Assembly (NCBI GenBank): GCA_039638595.1
Contig: JBDIWM010000019.1
Location: forward strand, 1-38,129
DNA: 38,129 bases
Direction: 5' to 3'
Origin: Atribacterota bacterium
GTDB lineage: Bacteria > Atribacterota > Atribacteria > Atribacterales > Caldatribacteriaceae
Shown here: positions 25,861 through 33,197 of the stretch, in pieces
Layout of the letters: each line of letters opens with the position of its first letter
Numbering within the stretch: position 1 is the first letter of the stretch
Notes under the pieces: generated by a model
Database searches by the model: none
What the model saw: only the letters and a program-made list of their open reading frames with translations
What the model was told of the DNA's origin: nothing
Position numbers and translations under genes: made by a program

Positions 25861-26844
25861 ATGAAGAAATTGGTTATTGTTTCTCTGGTTTTAATTTTGA
25901 TGGTTGGCCTTCTGGGAGGTTTTGCTCTGGCTCAGGGTAAAAAACCAAAAATTGCTTGGTGTCCGGCGATTGATGACCCATTCTACTACATGATTGGAAA
26001 AGGTATCGCTGACAAAGCGAAAGAGTTGGGTCTTGAGCTCTTCGTATCTGAATACCCCAAGGCTTGGGGTCCAGAAATCCAGGTGCCAATTTTGGAAGCG
26101 GTTGCGGCTCGGGGAGACATTGATGTCATTATTACCGGTCCAACTTCCAAAGAGGCGCTTATTGCTCCACTCAAGAGAATTCATGATAGTGGTATCGAAA
26201 TCATTACTGTGGATACCTATATTGGTGATGGTGATTACTCCAAACCCAGTGAGTACTCCTTCCCGCTTACCTTTATTGGAACGGACAACTTCCAGGGTGG
26301 TGTGGAGGTCGCTCATCATCTGGCAGAAATGATTGGGAAGAAAGGTAAAGTCTTTATTGAAACCACCAACCCCGATGTATCGAGCGTGGTGGAACGAGTA
26401 GAAGGATTCAAAAAAGGAATGTCAGAATATCCTGACATTGAAATTGTGGGTGTGGAATACAATCTCGATGTGCAGGAAAAGGCCCAACAACAGGTTGCAG
26501 CAGCTTTACAGGCAAATCCCGATATTGTGGGAGTTTTCGGTACCAACCTCTATAGTGCCCAGGGTGCTTATCAGGCCGTGGTAAATGCCGGTCTCACTGG
26601 AGCTGTAAAGATTGCTTCCTGGGATGCCACCGAGGACCTGATCAAGGCCCTGAGAGAAGGGAAAGTGGACCTGGTTCTAGCACAGAAACCCTATGAGATT
26701 GGAACTCTGGCGGTTGAGGCAGCTTATCAGTACTTTGTGGAAGGGAAGGAAATTCCGAAGAGAATGGTTCCTCGTTTCTTCTTCTTCACCAGGGATAACG
26801 TCGATGACCCAGAGTCGCAGCAGTATATCTATCGAGCAGACTGA
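25861..26844 (+). CDS. Sugar-binding protein of a ribose-type (CUT2) ABC transporter
   Basis: This 327-residue protein has a periplasmic-binding-protein type-1 fold (Peripla_BP_4). The signal peptide spans residues 1-25 (basic start, hydrophobic core, end at ALAQ). The mature part starts 'KKPKIAWCPAIDDPFYYMIGKG'. It holds the usual ribose-type landmarks 'FIGTDNFQGG', 'VERVEGFKKGM' and 'IASWDATEDLIKALREGKVDLVLAQKPYEIG'. ATG 25861 has a very G-rich ribosome site. It starts an operon with two permeases and one ATPase. A perfect 28-bp palindrome follows its stop after three bases. The ligand is unknown; its relatives bind pentoses, hexoses or polyols. Confidence 0.92.
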   Translation: MKKLVIVSLVLILMVGLLGGFALAQGKKPKIAWCPAIDDPFYYMIGKGIADKAKELGLELFVSEYPKAWGPEIQVPILEAVAARGDIDVIITGPTSKEALIAPLKRIHDSGIEIITVDTYIGDGDYSKPSEYSFPLTFIGTDNFQGGVEVAHHLAEMIGKKGKVFIETTNPDVSSVVERVEGFKKGMSEYPDIEIVGVEYNLDVQEKAQQQVAAALQANPDIVGVFGTNLYSAQGAYQAVVNAGLTGAVKIASWDATEDLIKALREGKVDLVLAQKPYEIGTLAVEAAYQYFVEGKEIPKRMVPRFFFFTRDNVDDPESQQYIYRAD

Positions 26845-26847
26845 CAA

Positions 26848-26875
26848 GTGGGGAGGGGCATATGCCCCTCCCCAC
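26848..26875 (+). repeat. Perfect palindrome after the binding-protein gene
   Basis: A 28-bp perfect palindrome with 14-base arms meets at CATATG (core GGGGAGGGGCAT). It starts three bases after the stop of the sugar-binding protein gene and ends 14 bases before the permease start. There is no T run, so transcript protection or processing is more likely than termination. Confidence 0.85.
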
Positions 26876-26889
26876 ACAACGAAGAAACG

Positions 26890-27963
26890 ATGGAGAACAA
26901 TCGTTTAAGCTTTGGGCAAAGGGTTGCGATTCAGGTTGGCCGCAACTGGGTTACGCTGTTCCTCGTTGTTCTCGTAGTCCTTTTTAGCCTTACTGGAAGG
27001 GGGTTTTTCTCTCCGAAAACGCTCAATAATGTCCTCCTCACCTCTTCTCCGGCGCTTCTTCTTGCTGCTGGAGAGACGTTTGTCATCATCACCGGGGGGA
27101 TTGACCTCTCGGTGGGATTTGTGCGGGGTCTCATTTCAGTTATTTCAGCGATTATCATGCGCGACCTCTATGCTCAAGGGTATTCGCCTTCCTTCTGTAT
27201 TCCACTGGGGATTGTGGTTGGTTTGGCGCTGGGTCTTTTACCAGGACTCATCAATGGAATTCTGGTGGCACGATTCAGGGTTCCTCCTTTTATCGCCACT
27301 TTAGGAATGTATGGGGTGGCCAATGGCTTTGCGCTTCGCTTTTCCAAAGGTTTCCCAATTACCTTTCTTCCTCCAGAAGTGGGCCAAATTGGGAACGGGT
27401 TTTTTGCCTATTTTCTCCCTGGCAGGGGGGTATCATTTTTTGAAAGGCATCCTGATATTGTGGAAGGGGAAATGCGGAACCTCATTGGTATTGTTCCGTA
27501 TTCCATTGTGGTGGTAGCGGTACTCCTTTCAGTCTTTGCCTTCATCCTCTCCCGTACCCAGTTTGGCCAGCACGTCTATGCCATTGGTGGGAACATCGAT
27601 GCAGCGCGCAGAGCGGGCATTCCTGTGGATCGGGATCTCATCCGGGTTTACATGATTTCCTCTTTCTTTGCCGCGTTATCGGGGGTGATGTCTACCCTGA
27701 TTTTCTCCATTGGAACTCACACCCAGTTTTCGGCCAGCCTTGAACTGTTTGCCATCGCTGCGGTGGTCATTGGTGGAGCAAGCCTCATGGGAGGGAAAGG
27801 AAGCATCTGGGGAACCACGTTGGGGGTTTTCGTGCTGGCGCTTTTAGAGATTGGTTTCCTCATGAGTGGGATTTTACCGTTTTACCGCTATATCGCCGTG
27901 GGAACGATTCTCGTCTTTGCAGTGGTTATTGACCAGACCTTCCCGGAAGTCGTGTATGAGTGA
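26890..27963 (+). CDS. Ribose-type (CUT2) ABC transporter permease 1
   Basis: This 357-residue BPD_transp_2 permease has about ten membrane segments. Conserved stretches are 'LAAGETFVIITGGIDLSVGF', 'VPPFIATLGMYG', 'GQHVYAIGGNIDAARRAGIPV' and 'VVIGGASLMGGKGSIWGT'. It is longer than RbsC (about 320) because of a segment before 'PFYRYIAV' and a loop 'FLPGRGVSFFERHPD'. ATG 26890 is the family start; an in-frame GTG at 26848 lies inside the palindrome. The ribosome site (GAAGAAA) is weak. Two DNA stretches of 66 and 160 bp are identical to the next gene, as described in the findings. Confidence 0.9.
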   Translation: MENNRLSFGQRVAIQVGRNWVTLFLVVLVVLFSLTGRGFFSPKTLNNVLLTSSPALLLAAGETFVIITGGIDLSVGFVRGLISVISAIIMRDLYAQGYSPSFCIPLGIVVGLALGLLPGLINGILVARFRVPPFIATLGMYGVANGFALRFSKGFPITFLPPEVGQIGNGFFAYFLPGRGVSFFERHPDIVEGEMRNLIGIVPYSIVVVAVLLSVFAFILSRTQFGQHVYAIGGNIDAARRAGIPVDRDLIRVYMISSFFAALSGVMSTLIFSIGTHTQFSASLELFAIAAVVIGGASLMGGKGSIWGTTLGVFVLALLEIGFLMSGILPFYRYIAVGTILVFAVVIDQTFPEVVYE

Positions 27964-27974
27964 GGGGTGGAGTA

Positions 27975-29045
27975 ATGGTTTTGTCTGAAAAGGGTCAAGA
28001 GCGTCTGTACCTTTTGGGAAAGAGCTGGATTTTTATTTTTCTCCTTGCCGAAGCGGTCATTTTCAGTCTTACTGGGATTGGGTTCTTCAGCGCAAAAAAT
28101 TTCCAGAATATCCTGGTCGCTTCCACCACCATCATGCTTCTTGCTGCTGGAGAGACGTTTGTCATCATCACCGGGGGGATTGACCTCTCGGTGGGATTTG
28201 TGATGGGGCTTTTTTGCGTCATCAACGCCAAGATTATCGTTGCTCTTCAGGCGGTGGGGGTATCACCGCTTCTTTCTCTTATCATCAGCATAGCCGGGAC
28301 ACTCCTTTTGGGACTTTTACCCGGGCTTTTAAACGGAGTGCTGGTGGCTAAGCTCAAGGTTCCTCCCTTTATCGCCACCTTTGGCATGTACGGCATTGCG
28401 TATGGGCTTTCTGAAATTCTCTGTAATAACGTTCCCATTGCTGGGTTGCCGTCGTTGGTTGGATTCATTGGCAATGGTTATATCCTTTACTATCTTCCGG
28501 GACGAGGCTTTAGCTTTTTTGCCCCACCGGAGGGCATTAGTCGGGCTGAAATCCGGGCTCTTTTGGCTCTTTTTCCCAACGTGTTTCTTTTTTCCGTTGT
28601 CGCGGTTCTCGTCTTTGCCTTCATCCTCTCCCGTACCCAGTTTGGCCAGCACGTCTATGCCATTGGTGGGAACATCGATGCAGCGCGCAGAGCGGGCATT
28701 CCTGTGGATCGGGATCTCATCCGGGTTTACATGATTTCCTCTTTCTTTGCCGCGTTATCGGGGGTGATGTATACCCTGCGCTTTGTTACTGGTCGAGCCG
28801 ATGCTGGTTCAGCCAGGATGCTGGATTCGGTAGTGGCGGTGGTCATTGGTGGAGCCAGTCTCTATGGAGGAACTGGGAGTATGATTGGCTCAATCATTGG
28901 GACTCTGGTAATTGGAGTTCTAGAAACCGGGATGGTTAACCTGGGATTACCAACCCATAATAAGTATGTCTATGTGGGAATTATTCTGGTGCTTGCGGTG
29001 CTCATTGACCAGTTCTTCCCGGAAATGGTGAAAAAGGGAGAGTAA
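27975..29045 (+). CDS. Ribose-type (CUT2) ABC transporter permease 2
   Basis: This is a 356-residue second permease of the same family. It shares the motifs and loop of the first gene but is otherwise clearly diverged in sequence ('IVALQAVGVSPLLSLIISIAG' in place of 'MRDLYAQGYSPSFCIPLGIVV'). ATG 27975 has GAGGGGTGGAG nearby upstream and starts 12 bases after the previous stop. A pair of distinct permeases suggests a heterodimeric channel, whereas the ribose system uses a homodimer. The gene that follows encodes the ATPase, after four bases. Confidence 0.9.
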   Translation: MVLSEKGQERLYLLGKSWIFIFLLAEAVIFSLTGIGFFSAKNFQNILVASTTIMLLAAGETFVIITGGIDLSVGFVMGLFCVINAKIIVALQAVGVSPLLSLIISIAGTLLLGLLPGLLNGVLVAKLKVPPFIATFGMYGIAYGLSEILCNNVPIAGLPSLVGFIGNGYILYYLPGRGFSFFAPPEGISRAEIRALLALFPNVFLFSVVAVLVFAFILSRTQFGQHVYAIGGNIDAARRAGIPVDRDLIRVYMISSFFAALSGVMYTLRFVTGRADAGSARMLDSVVAVVIGGASLYGGTGSMIGSIIGTLVIGVLETGMVNLGLPTHNKYVYVGIILVLAVLIDQFFPEMVKKGE

Positions 29046-29049
29046 AAAG

Positions 29050-29826
29050 ATGAACGATCGCAAACCACTTTTGGCAGTTCGGGATATCGTCAAGCGGTTT
29101 GGAGGTCTGGTGGCCCTGAACCGGGTAAGTATGGAGGTATACCCTGGGGAGGTGGTTGGACTTCTGGGTGATAATGGTGCGGGGAAGTCGACGCTGATTA
29201 AGATTGTTTCCGGGGTGCACCGGGCTGATGAGGGAGAAATCTTCTTTGATGGAAAAGAGGTTAAGATCGCAAACCCCATGGAAGCACTCAGATTGGGTAT
29301 TGAAACTATTTACCAGGATCTGGCTCTGGCTGAAAATTTGAATGTCTATTCCAATATTTTTTTAGGGAGAGAAAAACTCAGAAAAGCTCTAGGGCTCATC
29401 CCGGTTCTCGACCATGATTACATGCTCCAGGAGTCGAAAAAAGTTCTCCATCGTCTGGGTATTGAAATCCCATCGCTCAAGAATAAAATCAAAAACCTCT
29501 CCGGTGGGCAGAGGCAATCTGTGGCCATTTCCCGCTCCATTTACTGGAATGCCAAACTCCTCATCATGGATGAACCTACTGCTGCGCTGGGGGTGGCTGA
29601 ACAGAGAAAAGTACTCAATCTTGTCCGCACCTTAAGCGAGCAGGGTGTTTCCATCATTATCATCAGCCATCAACTCTATGACGTTTTTCAGGTGGCACAT
29701 CGTTTGGTGGTGCTTCGCCGTGGGGAAAAGGTTGGGGAGCGCCTGACCAAAGAAACGAATCCTGACGAAATCGTGAGTCTCATGGTTGGTGCTGAATTAG
29801 TCCAGGAGACCCGGGGAAGGGGATAA
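29050..29826 (+). CDS. Single-domain sugar ABC transporter ATPase
   Basis: This 258-residue ABC ATPase powers the transporter encoded just upstream. Walker A 'GDNGAGKST' is at residues 40-48, the Q-loop Gln at 89, the signature 'LSGGQ' at 150-154, the Walker B with 'LLIMDEPTAAL' around 170-180, and the H-loop His in 'IIISHQ'. All catalytic residues are present. It is half the size of RbsA, which fuses two such domains, so two copies must assemble. The 3' end overlaps the convergent AraC gene by 30 bases. Similar single-domain ATPases are known in fructose (Frc) and related CUT2 systems. Confidence 0.92.
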   Translation: MNDRKPLLAVRDIVKRFGGLVALNRVSMEVYPGEVVGLLGDNGAGKSTLIKIVSGVHRADEGEIFFDGKEVKIANPMEALRLGIETIYQDLALAENLNVYSNIFLGREKLRKALGLIPVLDHDYMLQESKKVLHRLGIEIPSLKNKIKNLSGGQRQSVAISRSIYWNAKLLIMDEPTAALGVAEQRKVLNLVRTLSEQGVSIIIISHQLYDVFQVAHRLVVLRRGEKVGERLTKETNPDEIVSLMVGAELVQETRGRG

Positions 29827-30684
29827 TGGTTTTCGAGGTTTTGAGACGTCCCTTTCCTGGAAGAAATGCATCCTACGCCATTCAGCGGGATTCATACCAG
29901 TATTTCGGCGAAAGGTTTTGGAAAATTGCTGGACGTTGGCAAATCCCAGTTTCAAGGCGATGTCAGTGACGCTGTACTCGGCGTGGAGGAGCATGCATTT
30001 ACTCCGTTGCAGTCTCAGAGCGGTGAGGTACGCTTTGGGGCTTACTCCCACGTAACGACGGAAGAGGTCCCGAAAGTGCTGGGGGGAGAGGCCGACTTCA
30101 CGGGCAATCTGCGCGATTTTGACTTTTTCGTACGCCCTTTCCCGAAAAATATCAAGCGTTCGCTCGATGGTTGCTTTTTGTTCAGGATTCAGATAAGGAA
30201 GTGAACCCCGTTCGTGGCTGCGCAGAAGGAGGACGATGAGTTCTTGCAGGAGTGCCTGACACTGGAGTTCACCCCAAGCAAGGTTTCCAGCACACTCCCA
30301 CTGAATCCGGTGGGCAAGGTCTAAGAAAATACTCGCTTCTAAGGGGAAAAGCCTGAAGTGGCCGATTGGGGAAGCATTAGTGAGGACCCGTAAAAGATCA
30401 GGAGGGAGAAAGGCGAATTGAATCACTACAAACTGAACCCCAAAATTAGAATCAGCCTGAAACCCGTGGGCGATACCTGAAGGGAAGAAGAACACCTCAT
30501 TTTCCTCGAACAATTCTTCCCTGGAATGGAGTAAGATGGTACACCTTCCCGATTTCACCAACCCCAGTTCGTGAAGCACATGATGATGGGGAAGCGCTCG
30601 CCAACAAGGGGAGTATGGTGGTTCGATGATTACCGCGTACTGACTTTTCCGCTGATTACTCAACGAGAATGATTCGAGTGACAT
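29797..30684 (-). CDS. AraC-family transcriptional regulator
   Basis: This 295-residue regulator has an N-terminal cupin-like sensing domain ('HHHVLHELGLVKSGRCTILLH', 'VFFFPSGIAHGFQAD') and a C-terminal double helix-turn-helix. The HTH region carries 'VKIAQIAREVGLSPQHFRDLFRRYVGVSPKAYL' and 'SVTDIALKLGFANVQQFSKTFRRNTGMNPAEWRR'. The HHH residues may bind metal or the sugar. It is divergent from the isomerase gene, so it probably controls the downstream catabolic operon and perhaps the upstream transporter. A 10-bp inverted repeat in the gap is a candidate site. Confidence 0.9.
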   Translation of the reverse strand: MSLESFSLSNQRKSQYAVIIEPPYSPCWRALPHHHVLHELGLVKSGRCTILLHSREELFEENEVFFFPSGIAHGFQADSNFGVQFVVIQFAFLPPDLLRVLTNASPIGHFRLFPLEASIFLDLAHRIQWECAGNLAWGELQCQALLQELIVLLLRSHERGSLPYLNPEQKATIERTLDIFRERAYEKVKIAQIAREVGLSPQHFRDLFRRYVGVSPKAYLTALRLQRSKCMLLHAEYSVTDIALKLGFANVQQFSKTFRRNTGMNPAEWRRMHFFQERDVSKPRKPLSPSPGLLD

Positions 30685-30867: not shown

Positions 30868-31704
30868 ATGATTATTGGAGTGAATGGCGAGTTTGTGAGG
30901 CATGCAGACAAATCCTTTGAGTATGCAGTGGAAAAAGCCGCCCAGATGGGGTATGAAGCATTTGAGCCGATTCTCCTTGATGGTCGAGATCTTCTGGTCG
31001 AAGCTGGGTATTACCATGCCATTAGTATGGACGAGGATGCCTTTTATTACCGGGATTTTTTAGCTTCTTTTGGAATGAAGTTCTCGGGGGTTTCGGCTCA
31101 TGCCCCGCTGATGCGACCCGACGTGGGGGTCCCATTTTTACGGCGTGCCATTCGCTTTGCATATCAGCTTGGGGCACCGGTGGTGAATACTGATGAAGGT
31201 CTAAAACCCAGGTGGATGAGTGATGAAGAGGCGTTCCAAATCATGCGGTACAGCCTCACGGTGGTACTGCAAACCGCGGAACGGTATGGAATTTACATCG
31301 GTATTGAGCCCCATAACGAATTTACCACTAACCCTGAAACGCTGGAGCGGATTTTGCATCTTGTGGATTCACCCTTATTGCGGGTGAATTTTGATACTGG
31401 AAACTCCTTTATCAGTGGTCATGACCCGTATAAGGCGCTTGAAGCGGTTGCGAACCGGGTGATTCATGTCCATGCTAAGGACATTGGTGGGGCACTGCTT
31501 GATGAGCGAGGGAAAGTTCATGGCACTCCCGTTGGTGTTGCTTGTGGGGATGGGGTGATTGATTGGGAACGGGTAATGACCATCCTGTCTCGGGTAGGAT
31601 ACGAGGGGGCATTGAGCGTCGAATGTGGTACTGAAGAACAGGCAAAACGGAGCCTTCAGCATCTTCTTGAGTTGCGAAAAAACTTGGGTTTTAGAGTAAA
31701 GTGA
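30868..31704 (+). CDS. Sugar phosphate isomerase/epimerase (xylose-isomerase-like TIM barrel)
   Basis: This 278-residue TIM-barrel enzyme is predicted to interconvert sugars, for example a ketose 3-epimerase or inosose/hydroxypyruvate-type isomerase. The probable divalent metal ligands are seen in order: Glu in 'GIEPHNEF', Asp in 'NFDTGNS', His in 'VIHVHAKD' and Glu in 'LSVECGTE'. GGGAGGTG is nine bases before ATG 30868. It is the first gene of the operon that continues with an ABC ATPase, and its TGA overlaps the next start. The substrate is unknown; the transporter and SDR downstream suggest a polyol or uncommon ketose. Confidence 0.85.
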   Translation: MIIGVNGEFVRHADKSFEYAVEKAAQMGYEAFEPILLDGRDLLVEAGYYHAISMDEDAFYYRDFLASFGMKFSGVSAHAPLMRPDVGVPFLRRAIRFAYQLGAPVVNTDEGLKPRWMSDEEAFQIMRYSLTVVLQTAERYGIYIGIEPHNEFTTNPETLERILHLVDSPLLRVNFDTGNSFISGHDPYKALEAVANRVIHVHAKDIGGALLDERGKVHGTPVGVACGDGVIDWERVMTILSRVGYEGALSVECGTEEQAKRSLQHLLELRKNLGFRVK

Positions 31705-33197
31705 TGACCCAAACGGTTCTTGCTCTTCAAAATGTCACCAAGGTTTTCCCGGGAGTGGTCGCTTTGGATGGGGTATATTTGACCCTCCAGAAAGGGGAAA
31801 TTCAGGGTCTTGTGGGTGAAAATGGGGCAGGGAAATCAACGCTGGTGAAAATCATTTCTGGAGCGCTTCGGCCTGATGGAGGAACCATCACCATCGAAGG
31901 TAGGTCGTTTTCAGCATTAACTCCCTACCAGGCTCGGCGTCTGGGAATTGCCACCGTTTATCAAGACCAGCAACTTGTACCGACACTCTCGGTTGCCGAA
32001 AACATTTTTCTGGGACGTGAATATTGCACTCCTTTTGGACGAGTTGACTTTCGTAAAATCGTTACCGAAACCGAGAGAATGTTCCGACAATTCGGTGTAA
32101 CGATTGATCCAAAAGCAAGAGTTGAAGATCTTCCTGTGGCTAAAAGACAGGAGGTGGCAATTTTCAAAGCTTTAGGGGAGAACGCCAAAGTACTCCTTCT
32201 TGACGAGCCCACCGCTGCTCTCTCGGGGGAACAGGTCCAATTGCTCTTTTTCTTTATTGCGCGACTTATCGAGCATGGGATGACAATTCTCTATATTTCC
32301 CATCATCTTGATGAGGTGTTAACCATTGCTCGACGGATCACCGTTCTTCGTAACGGAAAATGTGTGGGAACTTTCGACCGAGAAAGTCTGAATAAGGAAA
32401 CCCTGGTGGAAAAAATGGCTGGACATGCTCTGCATGGAGAAACAAAACATGTTCAGCGACTCTCTGGAGCCGTCATCTTGGAAGGAAAAGAACTCTCTGA
32501 CGGGGTAAGTTTTTCCAGGGTGACTATTTCCGTCCGAGAGGGGGAAATTGTGGGACTCCTTGGTGTGACTGGTTCAGGAGCCCAGGAGGTACTAAGAACC
32601 TTTTTTGGACTGCGACCTCTTCGGCAAGGAACCATTTTTGTGAGAGGTATGCCGTGCCGATATCCTTCCCCTTCAGGTATGGTCGCTCAGGGGGTGTTTT
32701 TTATGCCCGAAGAGATGCGGCGAGAAGGATTGGTCCTTCCCCTCTCCTATCCAAAAAATGTGACCCTGGTGCGACTTCGCAAGGTCACCCGGTACGGTAC
32801 GATTCATCTTAAAAAGGAGGAAAGTGCTACGGAACCATACGTCCAAACCCTCAATATTCGCCTGCCTCGCCTTCATGCTGAAGTGGGTACACTCAGTGGT
32901 GGAAACCAGCGGAAGGTACTTTTAGCCCGAGCTTTGTTTTCCGATGCCAACATCTGGTTACTGGAAAACCCCACTCAGGGAATCGATGTGGAAGCTCGTC
33001 AGGAGGTTCAGAGACTGCTTCTTGAGGCACGAGCGATGCAAAAGGCTATCCTCCTTTTCTCTTCAGACCTTGATGAACTGGCGAAACTTGCAGACCGTAT
33101 CCTTGTGTTTCGTAACGGCCGGGTGAGTACTGAAATTCACGAACCGTGGCAGGTGACACCTAAATACTTACTCAGTCTTATGCTTGGGGGTGAATAG
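31704..33197 (+). CDS. Sugar ABC transporter ATPase, RbsA/MglA type (two domains)
   Basis: This 497-residue protein has two tandem ABC domains. Domain 1 has Walker A 'GENGAGKST' (about residues 38-46), a degenerate signature 'LPVAKRQEV' and Walker B 'VLLLDEPTAAL'. Domain 2 has a degenerate Walker A ('GVTGSGAQEVL', usual for the family) and a good signature 'LSGGNQRKVLLARAL'. Its Walker B reads 'IWLLENPTQGID', with Glu-Asn in place of Asp-Glu. The pattern implies one competent ATP site. ATG 31704 overlaps the isomerase stop by one base (TGATG); GTG 31701 is possible. The permease gene follows after one base. Confidence 0.9.
   Translation: MTQTVLALQNVTKVFPGVVALDGVYLTLQKGEIQGLVGENGAGKSTLVKIISGALRPDGGTITIEGRSFSALTPYQARRLGIATVYQDQQLVPTLSVAENIFLGREYCTPFGRVDFRKIVTETERMFRQFGVTIDPKARVEDLPVAKRQEVAIFKALGENAKVLLLDEPTAALSGEQVQLLFFFIARLIEHGMTILYISHHLDEVLTIARRITVLRNGKCVGTFDRESLNKETLVEKMAGHALHGETKHVQRLSGAVILEGKELSDGVSFSRVTISVREGEIVGLLGVTGSGAQEVLRTFFGLRPLRQGTIFVRGMPCRYPSPSGMVAQGVFFMPEEMRREGLVLPLSYPKNVTLVRLRKVTRYGTIHLKKEESATEPYVQTLNIRLPRLHAEVGTLSGGNQRKVLLARALFSDANIWLLENPTQGIDVEARQEVQRLLLEARAMQKAILLFSSDLDELAKLADRILVFRNGRVSTEIHEPWQVTPKYLLSLMLGGE

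Follow-up and report, generated by a model that had tools for sequence, protein, structure and literature searches.

Two neighboring permease genes of a sugar ABC importer, encoded in the genome of an Atribacterota bacterium, share two short tracts of identical DNA that arose by gene conversion, an origin that is well supported, and conversion of the longer tract has occurred at least five times independently at this locus among related genomes. This longer tract is predicted to encode the cytoplasmic loop that docks on the ATPase. Reading the conversion and the symmetry of the docking interface jointly, we consider it quite likely that this is recurrent concerted evolution limited to the ATPase-docking segments of otherwise diverged paralogues. 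The selective part of this reading, i.e., why conversion stays at the loop, is one that we infer, and either interface symmetry or simply local homology could account for it.

The window (the whole stretch of DNA that was analyzed, 38,129 nucleotides) is an entire contig (C19) of an assembly of 83 contigs (G000), and loci related to its operon come mostly from Atribacterota ('Candidatus Caldatribacterium' and relatives). The operon (Table 1) is best explained as encoding one heteromeric sugar importer, made up of a binding protein, the two permeases A and B, and one ATPase with a single domain. Both permeases score 127-128 bits against PF02653 (BPD_transp_2, cut-off 26.8), and a search of NCBIfam, in which no equivalog cut-off was reached, returned permeases of the RbsC, MglC, YtfT/YjfF and LsrC/LsrD type as top matches. 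The ATPase aligns solely to the first half of two-domain ATPases (RbsA/YtfR type). Such a single-domain ATPase was seen in 27 of the 28 related loci scanned, the remaining locus having no ATPase in view. Given that the GTG at 26848 called by ORF callers lies inside a perfect palindrome, the ATG at 26890 is more probably the start of permease A. A strong RNA hairpin at this palindrome has a folding energy of -31 kcal/mol for 66 nt (z-score -6.3); it is possibly an attenuator or an mRNA stabilizer and may set the expression ratio of binding protein to permease. Downstream, an AraC-type regulator (29797-30684, minus strand) overlaps the end of the ATPase gene on the opposite strand, followed by a sugar isomerase/epimerase-like TIM barrel (30868-31704) and a second sugar transporter (31701-33197) with a classical two-domain ATPase, i.e., both ATPase architectures adjoin within the window.

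Table 1 Features of the importer operon and of the two homogenized tracts (T1 and T2), in window coordinates
Feature	Position	Strand	Remarks
Periplasmic sugar-binding protein gene (PF13407)	25861-26844	+	Same operon as the permeases; profile match
Perfect 28-nt palindrome GTGGGGAGGGGCATATGCCCCTCCCCAC	26848-26875	.	Junction of binding-protein gene and permease A; minus-strand self-match
Permease A (PF02653)	26890-27963	+	Open frame from GTG 26848
T1 in permease A	27058-27123	+	Residues 71-92; predicted cytoplasmic TM2-TM3 turn with GIDLSVG
T2 in permease A	27532-27691	+	Residues 229-281; predicted coupling-helix loop and flanking helices
Permease B (PF02653)	27960-29045	+	4-nt overlap with the end of permease A
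T1 in permease B	28137-28202	+	Residues 60-81
T2 in permease B	28611-28770	+	Residues 218-270
Single-domain ABC ATPase	29050-29826	+	258 aa; serves both permeases

T1 (66 nt) and T2 (160 nt) are identical between the two genes and lie at the same offset of 1079, while outside of them identity falls to ca. 0.3-0.6 per 50 nt, with a weaker patch of 0.76 near 27251-27300. The initial annotation, made from the letters alone, had given exactly these coordinates, lengths and offset, had correctly placed the GIDLSVG and AIGGNIDAARRAGIP motifs within the tracts, and had described the divergence around them that the flanking identities bear out. Among codons that specify the same residue in both permeases, all 73 scorable ones within the tracts are identical (T1 22/22, T2 51/51) as against 50 of 120 elsewhere (Fisher p=5e-8 for T1 and 2e-15 for T2). 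Direct repeats longer than 14 nt were absent from 19 of 20 other permease regions of the same genome, the exception being on contig C60.

Relatives were collected by DNA, protein and pattern searches, the two genes were codon-aligned and the comparison set comprised one genome per species. Synonymous identity between A and B in T2 is complete in the genome of the window (51/51) and nearly so in G014 (45/46), lower in G012 (40/46), G026 (38/44) and G009 (33/44), and 30/43 at an Aerophobota locus (L029). T2 is unconverted in G017 (13/37), G020 (15/35) and G015 (17/36), i.e., at 35-47%. T1 is converted in the genome of the window and in G009 (22/22 each), partly so in G012 and G026, and unconverted in G014 (8/20). 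In trees built from the sequence outside T1 and T2, all A genes fall into one clade and all B genes into another, each with 100/100 support, and the N- and C-terminal halves of both window genes each follow their own orthologues. In the T2 tree, however, the A and B copies of G000, G009, G012, G014 and G026 each join the partner from their own genome, and monophyly of A on T2 is rejected (AU p=2.2e-4; 4.2e-5 without the window genome). Pairing by genome, together with this rejection, establishes the minimum of five independent conversions. Thus, the comparison of silent divergence with orthologues that the initial annotation had proposed shows tracts homogenized within genomes and flanks that follow orthology; its suggestion of independent homogenization in related genomes is realized in at least five lineages, and its reading of the tracts as gene conversion agrees with silent sites that are identical or nearly so between paralogues in several genomes. 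The extent of T1 homogenization differs among G009, G011 and G007, so turnover by conversion seems to continue within a genus, judging from these three genomes.

The same comparisons bear on explanations that dispense with conversion. The initial annotation had offered selection on DNA or RNA as an alternative, e.g., a structured or regulatory element in both genes, and the lack of any silent change across 226 bp within this genome fits it. But identical synonymous codons between species amount to 0.36 in T1, 0.40 in T2 and 0.37 in the rest of the gene, so that orthologous tracts differ at ca. 60% of same-residue codons just as the remainder does. Such ordinary silent divergence rules out constraint at the DNA or RNA level, and we regard this alternative as exceedingly improbable. 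It is equally hard to believe that strong protein conservation and codon bias produced the identity by chance: the encoded segments are indeed conserved, but same-residue codons agree at only ca. 40% elsewhere in the genes and at 35-47% in the T2 of G015, G017 and G020, and these silent-site counts led us to reject this explanation. A false tract, created by an assembler that used the reads of one copy for both, is very unlikely, though slightly less so than the previous two. In its favor, contigs C69 and C60 of this genome end in the tract of a second system (see below), contigs of the g4 genus end in T2, and G011 carries a loop-like tandem copy. Against it, the tract is correctly flanked in the genome of the window, where the N- and the C-terminal half of each gene agree with the orthologues of that gene, a result that also rules out a swap of gene halves by the assembler. 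Moreover, a genome assembled in one contig (G014) carries an exact run of 135 nt in T2, so collapse during assembly is not needed, and the partly decayed tracts of G009, G012 and G026 could not have been produced by collapse. Breakage of contigs inside T2 (G004, G006, L046 and L047) itself indicates a real, long exact repeat at this place.

The AlphaFold model of permease B (pLDDT 86.6) places two helices (227-237 and 239-244) between TM6 (207-225) and TM7 (249-275), and both fall within T2. These are predicted to be the coupling helices, making T2 the putative cytoplasmic loop that docks on the ATPase, although T2 also extends past the coupling helix into the adjoining helices. By counting helices, with the basic loop VAKLKV set inside, T1 would be the cytoplasmic turn between TM2 and TM3. 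Top Foldseek matches, all weak, were BtuCD, PsaBC, HmuUV and their relatives; BtuCD and HmuUV matched with a probability of 1.0 but E-values of ca. 0.004-0.02 and TM-scores of 0.39-0.47, and a sequence search of the PDB gave no relative. In importers of the BtuCD type, the equivalent loop forms the docking contact with the ATPase. The earlier guess that the homogenized region includes the part that contacts the ATPase is thus in line with the predicted fold and with the comparison of ATPase architectures described below.

Conversion has also affected a second system of this genome, an operon in which the ATPase gene lies between the two permease genes (permA'-ATPase-permB'). Its permA' is split over contigs C69 and C60; when these are joined, a 164-bp identical tract runs across YATGDNKDAARAMGINTDWVK and spans the same coupling loop as T2 of the window system, while contig C60 alone shows a 99-nt repeat reaching the contig end. 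The two contigs (L185 on C69 and L129 on C60) overlap by 56 nt within the homogenized tract, and the assembly is broken exactly there. Orthologues of this system are converted at the same spot in G002, G003, G009, G011, G014 and G007, give a weaker signal in G013, and are unconverted in G015, G017, G019, G020, G022 and G039. Outside the tract, A' and B' form clean separate clades, and inside the tract the copies pair by genome in relatives, as at the window locus, and monophyly of A' is rejected (AU p=4.7e-5). This system was converted independently in about four lineages.

We surveyed 42 permease pairs from the permease regions of three genomes (G000, G014 and G017), sorted by the type of ATPase. 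Mean loop identity was 0.83 in the eight pairs served by a lone single-domain ATPase, 0.38 in the 25 whose ATPase has two domains and 0.31 in the nine that come with two ATPase genes. The excess of loop identity over the remainder differs by ATPase type (Mann-Whitney p=2.8e-5), a value that overstates independence, as the eight single-ATPase pairs are four systems recounted over up to three genomes. Runs of more than five identical codons occur, among these 42 pairs, only where there is a single ATPase domain, and in the three genomes pairs with a two-domain ATPase or with two ATPase genes are without conversion. The two permeases of a single-ATPase pair are also more alike outside the loop (0.44 vs 0.25 in the others). 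One exception (L137, G000:C62:2849-5586) combines two permeases and a single-domain ATPase, yet has divergent loops (0.35), and in G028, G032 and G039 the loops are only 0.69-0.73 identical and unconverted, so loop identity is not obligatory. Few permease pairs were present in six distant genomes from outside the phylum.

Our preferred scenario is as follows. A and B are old paralogues that have diverged in their substrate-facing and membrane parts, and homologous recombination between the tandem copies (gene conversion, presumably RecA-dependent) repeatedly moves short segments from one gene to the other. Copies last mainly in the two predicted cytoplasm-facing segments, foremost in the coupling-helix loop and less so in the TM2-TM3 turn. 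The product of one ATPase gene would form a homodimer whose two docking sites are equivalent, and it may be for this reason that the two permeases stay alike where they dock. Changes by conversion at the docking loop would then be neutral or useful and would preserve homology for further conversion, and those elsewhere would blend two specialized permeases and be lost.

Alternatively, conversion may be real but its site set by the mechanics of recombination alone, i.e., conserved segments seed the exchange, divergence of the flanks stops it, and the symmetry of the ATPase contributes nothing directly apart from ordinary conservation of the protein. We see this as a real possibility, though less likely than not. 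T1 and T2 have the highest protein similarity even where they are unconverted (0.91 and 0.70 vs 0.45 in G017), permeases paired with a two-domain ATPase are locally too dissimilar to seed recombination, and lineages without conversion exist. However, loops are most alike precisely in the single-ATPase pairs, so a reason at the protein level is needed first, and the second system, where the ATPase gene separates the permeases, has been converted at the same spot. Extending the interface reading to a general rule, whereby a shared homodimeric ATPase leads conversion to maintain identical docking loops over order-level time spans while the rest diverges, is a step that we propose but hold to be less likely than not. 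If the rule were true, subunit stoichiometry would predict the intragenic site of conversion.

T2 may also be a hot spot of gene fusion. The single hybrid permeases of G001 and G002 might be real deletion products of unequal crossing-over, which would be compatible with interface-limited conversion, and we find this about evenly balanced. In the G001 hybrid (L025) the sequence switches cleanly from A to B inside T2, and this genome has no other match for the missing 27700-28600 stretch; G002 has the same A-front and B-back form in a decayed operon with intact neighbors. In the latter (L044:5000-8150), the binding-protein gene, the permease gene and the ATPase region are all interrupted by stops and frameshifts. 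On the other side, coverage of the G001 contig is only 3.2, repeats that exceed the assembly word could have been collapsed, the lost 1.1-kb piece could be unbinned, and the reciprocal form in G011 looks like an assembly loop. This last one (L008:1911-3876, G011:C148) has a B front and an A back followed by a near-exact repeat (unit of 1080 bp, ca. 860 bp copied, one single-base gap) up to the contig end. It is probably such a loop, a very recent tandem duplication being the alternative, and with ca. 860 bp copied with one gap to the contig end we do not accept it as a true reciprocal crossover product. All in all, the G002 hybrid is probably real, that of G001 may be real or an assembly artefact, and that of G011 is doubtful.

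What stands out is that concerted evolution is confined to a docking loop, that it recurs within an order in two transporter systems, and that it correlates with the number of ATPase domains. The recurrence, the second system, the hybrid genes and the link to a single-domain ATPase all go beyond what the initial annotation had noticed. If the link to the ATPase holds, heteromeric transporters driven by a symmetric motor could be recognized from sequence alone, and the pairs would serve as a natural experiment on whether both docking sites must match. Such tracts also cause breaks or false joins in metagenome assemblies and can yield false hybrid genes.

Gene conversion as such is ordinary, and the best-known bacterial examples of concerted evolution involve entire genes or domains. 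The permeases have Pfam family PF02653 in common with classical CUT2/RbsC-type permeases (RbsC, MglC, YtfT/YjfF, LsrC/LsrD), but these are partnered by a two-domain ATPase (RbsA/MglA/YtfR/LsrA type), whereas the window operon, unlike classical CUT2 systems (RbsABC/MglABC type), combines one single-domain ATPase with two different permeases. In the open-access literature we found no description of conversion between pairs of ABC permeases. Long-lasting recurrent concerted evolution is known for 26 prokaryotic genes, mostly subunits of stable complexes, for which paralogue interference has been discussed (PMC6053082). As with the permeases, paralogues within a genome are closer there than orthologues, but transporters and permeases go unmentioned in the main text, and the cases are genes and not docking-site segments (PMC6053082). 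Another related case is the pair mtrA-1/mtrA-2 of the methanogen mtr operon, with its long-lasting and domain-limited gene conversion (PMC4632066). Like the permeases, these are paralogues of the same operon that stem from an ancient duplication and show recurrent homogenization of one domain over a long time; in mtrA, however, the whole non-membrane domain is homogenized and the membrane anchor differs (PMC4632066), whereas in the permeases it is ca. 50 codons around the docking loop of a membrane protein, in two separate pairs. That conversion is confined to a docking loop, recurs there and is linked to the architecture of the ATPase appears to be new.
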